From assembly GCF_913055835.1 (NCBI RefSeq), contig NZ_CAJXKQ010000005.1:102902-166901 (forward strand): 64,000 nucleotides of DNA, read 5' to 3'. This DNA comes from an uncultured Marinobacter sp. GTDB taxonomy: Bacteria > Pseudomonadota > Gammaproteobacteria > Pseudomonadales > Oleiphilaceae. Both the position numbers and the translations under genes were made by a program. Positions within the stretch are counted from its first letter, which is position 1. Every line of letters begins with the position of its first letter. Shown piece by piece: positions 4,595 to 36,948 of the stretch. The notes beneath the pieces are model-generated. The model was not told where the DNA came from. It saw only the letters and a list, made by a program, of their open reading frames with translations, and did not search any database.

Positions 4595-4702
4595 GAGGCA
4601 TTGGGGGTGCCCTTCCAAAAATGTTGAAGGCCAGGGATGGCCTGAAACAAGCGCACATGGACGTGCTCGTAGCGGTTTTTGGAAGGGCGCCCCCAATGCC
4701 TC
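4595..4702 (+). repeat. Structured intergenic repeat, copy 1 (long variable stem, two inner hairpins)
   Basis: The arms gaggcattgggggtgccctt and onwards (27 nt, 4595-4621) and 4676-4702 pair over 27 bp with one T-G wobble. The 54-nt core contains GGCCAGGGATGGCC and GCACATGGACGTGC, matching the cores at 17526, 27249 and 36788. It lies in the divergent gap between the histidine phosphatase and yaiI, ending 106 nt before the yaiI start. Orientation is set by the shared core. Confidence 0.85.
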
Positions 4703-17525: not shown

Positions 17526-17628
17526 CGGGTGGGTCATCCCTTCGCCAGACCGTGGAGGGCCATGGATGGCCCGACCGAGCCTACATGGAAGTATTTACGG
17601 CGTGTCTGGCGAAGGGATGACCCACCCG
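17526..17628 (+). repeat. Structured intergenic repeat, copy 2
   Basis: The 25-nt arms (17526-17550 and 17604-17628) are perfectly complementary. The 53-nt core has GGGCCATGGATGGCCC and CTACATGGAAGTAT. It lies between two minus-strand genes, 36 nt after the stop of the thioredoxin-fold gene and before the Tat reductase start. Confidence 0.88.
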
Positions 17629-27248: not shown

Positions 27249-27355
27249 GAGTGGGCGGGGCTGGCCTTCTGAAACTGTGCGGAGCCATGGATGGCGTAGC
27301 CAAGCGTACATGGACGTATTCACAGCGTGTTTCAGAAGGGCAGCCCCGCCCGCTC
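27249..27355 (+). repeat. Structured intergenic repeat, copy 3
   Basis: Arms of 27 nt (27249-27275, 27329-27355) pair with one T-G wobble and one G-G mismatch. The 53-nt core contains GAGCCATGGATGGC and GTACATGGACGTAT. It separates the acyl-CoA dehydrogenase (stop 14 nt away) from the downstream SDR, so it lies inside the catabolic gene cluster. Confidence 0.88.
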
Positions 27356-35358: not shown

Positions 35359-35389
35359 GAGCGCTCATTCGAGCTCCGGAGCGAGCGTC

Positions 35390-35441
35390 GGGACGGGTTT
35401 CCAAAACGCGCTGTGAATACCTCCCTGTACGCTCGGCTCCG
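35390..35441 (-). repeat. Truncated structured repeat, copy 5
   Basis: Read on the minus strand, CGGAGCCGAGCGTACAGGGA then GGTATTCACAGCGC and a right arm GTTTTGGAAACCCGTCCC match the second hairpin and right arm of the other copies. The left arm and the GCCATGGATGGC hairpin are missing, so the long stem cannot form. It lies between the hydroxyacid dehydrogenase and the desaturase, in the sense direction of the desaturase transcript. Confidence 0.75.
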
Positions 35442-35474
35442 CCCCTGCCTCCTCCGGGATAACGTCAACCGTAG

Positions 35475-36600: not shown

Positions 36601-36787
36601 TTTTCACCTTTGGTTAATCAATTAAATCCAGTCAGGAAAATATATCTCAGAGTACAACTGTGCGCTGAATTTAACTGACAAAAACTACTATGGCAATGCC
36701 TGCAATAGGAAACATAGAGAGAGATGACAAAAACTGGAACACTCGTACCGCGTTTATCAAGGAGGCAAGTCGTTCTGAGAATTTGGA

Positions 36788-36897
36788 GTGCCGGATGGAT
36801 AGGGCCTCCACAGGATGTCTTTGGCCATGGATGGCCAAAGCCAAGCGCACAGGGATGTGCTCGTAGCGGTCCTGTGGAGGCCCTATCCATTCGGCAC
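36788..36897 (+). repeat. Structured intergenic repeat, copy 4
   Basis: The 28-nt arms (36788-36815, 36870-36897) pair throughout with a single G-T wobble. The 54-nt core has TTTGGCCATGGATGGCCAAA and GCACAGGGATGTGC. It lies in a 399-bp gap between the response regulator and the desaturase; the remainder of the gap holds the regulator's terminator and probably the desaturase promoter (36600-36750, AT-rich). Confidence 0.9.
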
Positions 36898-36948
36898 CGC
36901 GCCCAAGGAAGAAGACTGGGAAACCAACAGAAATACCAGAAACAAAAA

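Follow-up and report, generated by a model that had tools for sequence, protein, structure and literature searches.

In the 64,000-nucleotide stretch of Marinobacter DNA analysed here (hereafter the window), a dispersed two-hairpin element occupies positions 36788..36897 of the plus strand and presents a GGA motif in the loop of each hairpin, which raises the question of what this element is and whether its loops serve the binding of CsrA. The original prediction held that the second hairpin resembles a CsrA/RsmA binding site and that two GGA loops per element would suit dual-site docking by a CsrA dimer.

The element, copy 4 of the window, is built of an outer stem, P1, and of two hairpins, P2 and P3. 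The 29-nt 5' arm of P1 (36788..36816, plus strand), unique in sequence, pairs with the 3' arm (36869..36897) with zero mismatches if G-T pairs are allowed, and RNA folding agrees, returning P1 and both hairpins at -81.5 kcal/mol (z = -10); the extent first assigned to the element, 36788 to 36897, coincides exactly with this 29-bp outer stem. Hairpin P2 (36819..36840) reads CTTTGGCC-[ATGGAT]-GGCCAAAG, with its GGA at 36829-36831, and C-ANGGAN-G is invariant there in an alignment of 62 copies. Hairpin P3 (36845..36867), the feature under study, has its GGA at 36853-36855 and GC pairs at its base, with TCGTA bulged out on the 3' side, and ACANGGANGT is invariant across the same 62 copies. It had been described as a GGGA loop on a 5-bp stem; the hairpin stands and is better drawn as an ANGGAN hexaloop on 4 bp (GCAC-[AGGGAT]-GTGC). 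The GGA starts of P2 and P3 lie 24 nt apart.

The window contains the element four times in full and once truncated. The three other full copies are on the plus strand at 4595..4702 (P2 loop AGGGAT, P3 loop ATGGAC), 17526..17628 (P3 ACATGGAAGT) and 27249..27355 (P3 ACATGGACGT), and the truncated fifth copy, at 35385..35450 on the minus strand, retains P3 and the 3' side (GTACAGGGAGGT) and lacks P2 and the 5' arm. Compared with RUACARGGAUGU, the CsrA SELEX consensus (PMC7652899), the matches had been counted correctly at 11 of 12 for GCACAGGGATGT, 10 of 12 for GTACATGGACGT and 11 of 12 for the truncated copy. Under a Markov model, the window would be expected to hold 2.7 C-G-closed ANGGAN hairpins and 0.125 double ANGGAN hairpins spaced by 15-32 nt; it holds 11 and 4, respectively. 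A separate palindrome-like block, AGNGTACANNTGTNCGCYGAATTT (window 36648-36674), lies upstream of a desaturase-like gene, is kept in all aligned relatives and resembles a repressor operator.

Loop conservation and the fit to CsrA

In the own genome, a pattern search recovered 65 copies, and a covariance model trained on 62 of them recovered 114. Genome-wide, the architecture is that of a variable but paired P1 of about 28 bp with two hairpins, each of which carries an ANGGAN loop. The original prediction was to fall if the GGA bases proved unconserved in a larger alignment: among 104 full-length copies gathered without requiring GGA, 103 retain both ANGGAN loops, against 3 of 104 shuffled cores, and the proposed suitability for dual-site docking is likewise borne out at this larger scale. 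Aligning the 62 copies shows no variation in CANGGANG of P2 and ACANGGANGU of P3, except at both N positions, which vary. P3 retains exactly ACA-N-GGA-N-GU while its adjacent pairs change by compensation, closing pairs flip to G-C in some copies with the loop unchanged, and from the first GGA to the second the distance is, with few exceptions, 23-25 nt. In other gammaproteobacterial genera, for which the fetching pattern fixed P3 only, the P2 loop contains GGA in 82 of 82 copies, a count that includes six rows delimited by hand; 72 of these loops are ANGGAN hexaloops and the remaining ten hold GGA without a full ANGGAN match, some of them as an AGGAN pentaloop, a form that occurs in RsmZ too (PMC4005645).

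Two variants depart from this layout. At L140, L143, L149, L154-L157 and similar copies, the 3' bulge of P3 gives way to a mini-hairpin, CCGCAAGG, whose loop is of the GNRA type. In a seven-copy subfamily (L170:1509-1675 and L172:1541-1706, with partial matches at L158, L173, L175, L176 and L142), about 80 nt replace the P3 loop, its GGA is lost and further hairpins are gained.

The invariant columns of P2 and P3 correspond to what SELEX conserved in CsrA ligands, where ACA and GGA were present in 100% of the sequences and GU in all but one, mostly in six-base loops on short stems (PMC7652899). Moreover, RsmE binds with high affinity to an ANGGAX hexaloop that sits immediately on a stem closed by C-G (PMC4005645). 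C-G-closed ANGGAN hairpins of this kind, which unite the RsmE optimum with the ACA, GGA and GU of SELEX, are found in 103 of the 104 own copies, and the predicted resemblance to a CsrA/RsmA site thus holds. The host CsrA (L337:914-1108) is canonical and shares 54 of its first 55 residues with P. aeruginosa RsmA, which is its best match in the PDB, an entry titled CsrA homolog. A csrA gene is present in 38 of 38 relatives. Judged from sequence, the CsrA reading of the element is supported, and from the architecture of the CsrA dimer we infer that a spacing of 23-25 nt would be suitable for one dimer to bridge both loops. Against this reading count the P2 hairpin, which is often a long, stable stem of the type that may make a poor CsrA ligand (PMC7652899), and the seven-copy subfamily, whose replaced P3 loop no longer offers a GGA.

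Constraint on the RNA strand and at individual loci

The sequence of P1 is free to vary, with a median arm identity of 0.5 between copies, and its pairing is retained. Covariation is extensive both among own copies (474 double-changed cells against 148 when shuffled) and across genera (975 against 302 when shuffled), and in both sets it also lies far above slid controls. The non-Watson-Crick pairs of P1, read on the GGA strand, are strongly biased: 56 G-U against 2 A-C in the 62 copies under symmetric scoring (binomial p ~1e-14), and 87 against 8 in the 104 copies (binomial p ~7e-18). This bias is seen in four of four gene-orientation contexts and is equally strong at copies outside the reach of sense transcription from a neighbour. 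As a G-T pair on one strand is an A-C pair on the other, a DNA palindrome gives no reason for such an asymmetry. Because P1 deviates by G-U rather than by A-C, these substitution patterns indicate that the structure is constrained as RNA of the GGA strand, which indirectly answers the caution about transcription in this orientation that came with the original prediction; a strand-specific function of the element as single-stranded DNA may be a further reading.

Signals for transcription were sought around the copies. The sigma70 scores of the 5' flanks are no higher than those of other flanks, and cross-species footprinting between the own genome and a relative revealed no conserved block in the 5' flank. 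Orientation relative to the flanking genes is random among own-genome units, on which ground a role as a sense 3' UTR was rejected; a role as terminator was rejected as well, no T-run being found 3' of the P1 3' arm.

At individual loci, the window site is occupied by the element in four related genomes and empty in another five. In one relative (G021), 21 of 30 copies sit at the site of an own-genome copy with both flanks syntenic, and 20 of the 21 compared pairs (one anchored by a single flank) keep the same orientation. Between these two species, the P1 changes at pairs formed in both amount to 198 two-sided against 17 one-sided, 50 of 588 P1 positions lack pairing in one or both species (two copy pairs involving the expanded-P3 variant account for 22 of the 50) and the intergenic flanks are nearly unalignable. 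From this syntenic retention, the turnover of the stem by pairs and the decayed flanks, each copy therefore appears, in these comparisons, to be under selection for its structure and loops.

A preponderance of double changes is also what a DNA palindrome kept by mutation alone might leave, template switching copying changes from arm to arm and generating covariation without any RNA function, and the ratio of 198 to 17 is above what slow two-step compensation might give. Template switching predicts, however, equal numbers of G-T and A-C intermediates, at odds with the 87 to 8 observed, and it leaves the invariant ANGGAN loops and the P2 and P3 helices unexplained. We regard it as very improbable as the full explanation, which the strand asymmetry already disfavours, although template-switch correction may contribute to P1 turnover.

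Dispersal and candidate functions

Almost all copies are intergenic, only 2 of 100 units overlapping a predicted gene, and convergent gene ends look over-represented among them (28 of 92 units, against 2 of 26 intergenic gaps in the window). Neighbouring copies less than 250 bp apart in the own genome are divergent in 13 of 13 pairs, their 5' ends facing and their GGA strands pointing apart, as at C18:68450-68677 and C3:136594-136826; close pairs are likewise divergent in other genera according to match coordinates, and examples occur in G027, G029 and G034. Within several of the longer pair spacers (own-genome contigs C21, C19, C57, C8 and C2) lies an inverted pair, GTAGGTCGGATTAGC...GTAATCCGAC, that is a separate, REPIN-like repeat of the GTAG type.

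Within the genus, 24 of 24 sampled relatives carry the element, with capped counts of 3 to >117 copies each, and it is also present in three genera from other families of the order. In a class-wide survey with strict filters and at most 30 candidates scored per genome, so that counts are lower bounds, at least 29 of 149 sampled gammaproteobacterial genomes match. A pattern scan of named genomes returned Marinobacter, Microbulbifer, Stenotrophomonas, Xanthomonas, Shewanella, Idiomarina, Rheinheimera, Alteromonas, Methylococcaceae, one Yersinia and others. The spread across Gammaproteobacteria is thus wide but patchy. In one genome (G112), near-identical copies are found within a larger amplified repeat with inverted ends, CAGCAGCCTGTCGGACTT...AAGTCCGACAGGCTGCTG, and copies can hence also spread by riding other repeats.

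High and variable copy number, patchy spread, the uniformly divergent close pairs, the amplified copies of G112 and sites that are occupied or empty among related species are all features of a selfish, REP- or MITE-like miniature element, whose hairpins would be read as single-stranded DNA by a transposase and whose GGA loops would serve this enzyme and not CsrA. Such an element would not be expected to have an outer stem devoid of conserved terminal sequence, to show G-U pairs far above A-C or to remain structurally intact at orthologous sites while the neighbouring sequence decays. Its loops, moreover, follow the CsrA rule, and searches for a plasmid or phage origin gave zero matches; we consider this explanation improbable. 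An integron attC site was also rejected, the conservation of the element being, in our reading, central and not terminal.

The function that we favour, and judge probable, is that of a dispersed TwoAYGGAY-type RNA of which each copy would capture one CsrA dimer, the copies together buffering or titrating CsrA and possibly tethering it locally. For the window copy, the RNA of the plus strand is predicted to fold into a stem of about 29 bp with two hairpins carrying C-G-closed ANGGAN loops; this strand would be transcribed from a weak promoter of its own, by read-through or by antisense transcription. Once transcribed, the element would capture one CsrA dimer across its loops, 24 nt apart, and about 110 copies could jointly buffer or titrate CsrA, while a single copy could also tether CsrA to its host RNA. 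A point against the sponge model is that, with the same csrA, the number of copies in close relatives ranges from 3 to >117, so that CsrA control can do without a large set of them. The 5' flanks without a promoter signal and the random orientation to genes also count against the favoured function, of which transcription is the weak link. We are more tentative about the fuller proposal that more than 100 separately maintained docking elements, each for one dimer, form a distributed buffer of >200 sites, which would combine a repeat-like spread with locus-by-locus selection and often a divergent pairing.

The main rival to CsrA buffering is a local role in cis, in which the element would act only within its own transcript or locus, through CsrA or RNase III-type enzymes, in 3' UTR stability or in antisense control at gene ends, its total copy number being irrelevant. 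The retention of the same intergenic site and orientation across species fits this view, as do the nearly exclusive intergenic location and the apparent excess of convergent gene ends (28/92 against 2/26). The random orientation relative to neighbours argues against it, and so does a G-U bias that is undiminished where no sense transcription from a neighbour crosses the element. On balance, an exclusively local action seems to us unlikely, if less so than a selfish origin.

Relation to known RNAs and repeats

A covariance-model search of the own genome with Rfam RF01731 (TwoAYGGAY) gives matches at 39 places at E<=10, among them the window copy (36783..36902, plus strand; genome coordinates C5:139684-139803), which scores 38.7 bits against a gathering score of 43; scanned against Rfam at gathering score, the window gave zero matches. 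Above this threshold are one further own-genome copy (C13:18028, 44.3 bits) and copies in G027 (47.6) and G029 (43.5), which represent two other genera, and cmscan agrees on them. In E-value mode, cmscan gave no TwoAYGGAY near the window copy, as opposed to the 38.7 bits of the genome search, a discrepancy attributed to cmscan filters because both tools agree on the copies above the cut-off. By sequence and predicted fold, the element is filed as TwoAYGGAY-type, in an already known family, and as a variant of it because of its different second hairpin and the sub-threshold scores of most copies.

Weinberg et al. (2010, PMC2864571) classed TwoAYGGAY as a probable RNA without a cis-regulatory role and gave human gut, gammaproteobacteria and Clostridiales as its sources. 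Gardner and colleagues (2014) proposed it as a CsrA binder and noted that its external stem is poorly conserved and that it has tandem G-A (PMC4333381), and the CsrA idea was thus anticipated for this family. In the literature naming the family, within the limited reach of our search, we found no experimental test of it as a CsrA binder. What appears to be new is the dispersal at more than 100 copies (about 200 sites) with constraint at each locus, together with the strand evidence; further new points are that close pairs are always divergent and that the element is spread widely but patchily among Gammaproteobacteria. The 2014 prediction hence gains a far stronger comparative basis, and natural relatives with 3 to >117 copies offer a convenient host system for testing it. 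CsrA control is usually pictured as relying on few sponge RNAs with many sites each. If our reading is true, a dispersed, high-copy family would partition CsrA over the transcripts of the genome, a situation absent from current models, and this master regulator may have, in the genome, a scattered sponge or a local tether.

With TwoAYGGAY, the element shares an external stem little conserved in sequence and two adjacent hairpins whose loops read (A)NGGA(N); tandem G-A is present in the first hairpin of 30 of 104 own copies, the window copy having a continuous stem instead. It differs in its second hairpin, where a short stem with an AGC/GC base and a conserved bulge on the 3' side replaces the long stem of TwoAYGGAY, as well as in its copies, mostly below the cut-off and more than 100 per genome. 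In a weak match to ivy-DE (RF02999; window 36807-36886, 23.2 bits against a gathering score of 41.4), the sequence ACAGGGA of P3 and the CGUA on the 3' side line up with the model, which suggests that the element and ivy-DE may be relatives of the same fold.

CsrB, CsrC, RsmX, RsmY and RsmZ likewise display multiple ANGGA loops on short stems, and Rfam clan CL00106 holds both CsrC and TwoAYGGAY. These sponges are, however, single sRNA genes with a promoter, a terminator and many sites per RNA, whereas the element has two sites, about 110 loci and no promoter or terminator that we could see. A canonical sponge gene was rejected as its true identity, the genome having no CsrB match and only sub-threshold RsmZ matches, elsewhere, and the window none at gathering score; the CsrA sRNAs published for Alcanivorax and Alteromonas were set aside as different, single-locus RNAs. 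Finally, the element resembles REP, BIME and REPIN sequences in being short, palindromic, intergenic, of high copy number and arranged in inverted pairs, and a GTAG-type REP coexists with it as a separate repeat between some element pairs. In contrast to these repeats, it conserves an RNA core and its pairing, and not its terminal sequence.
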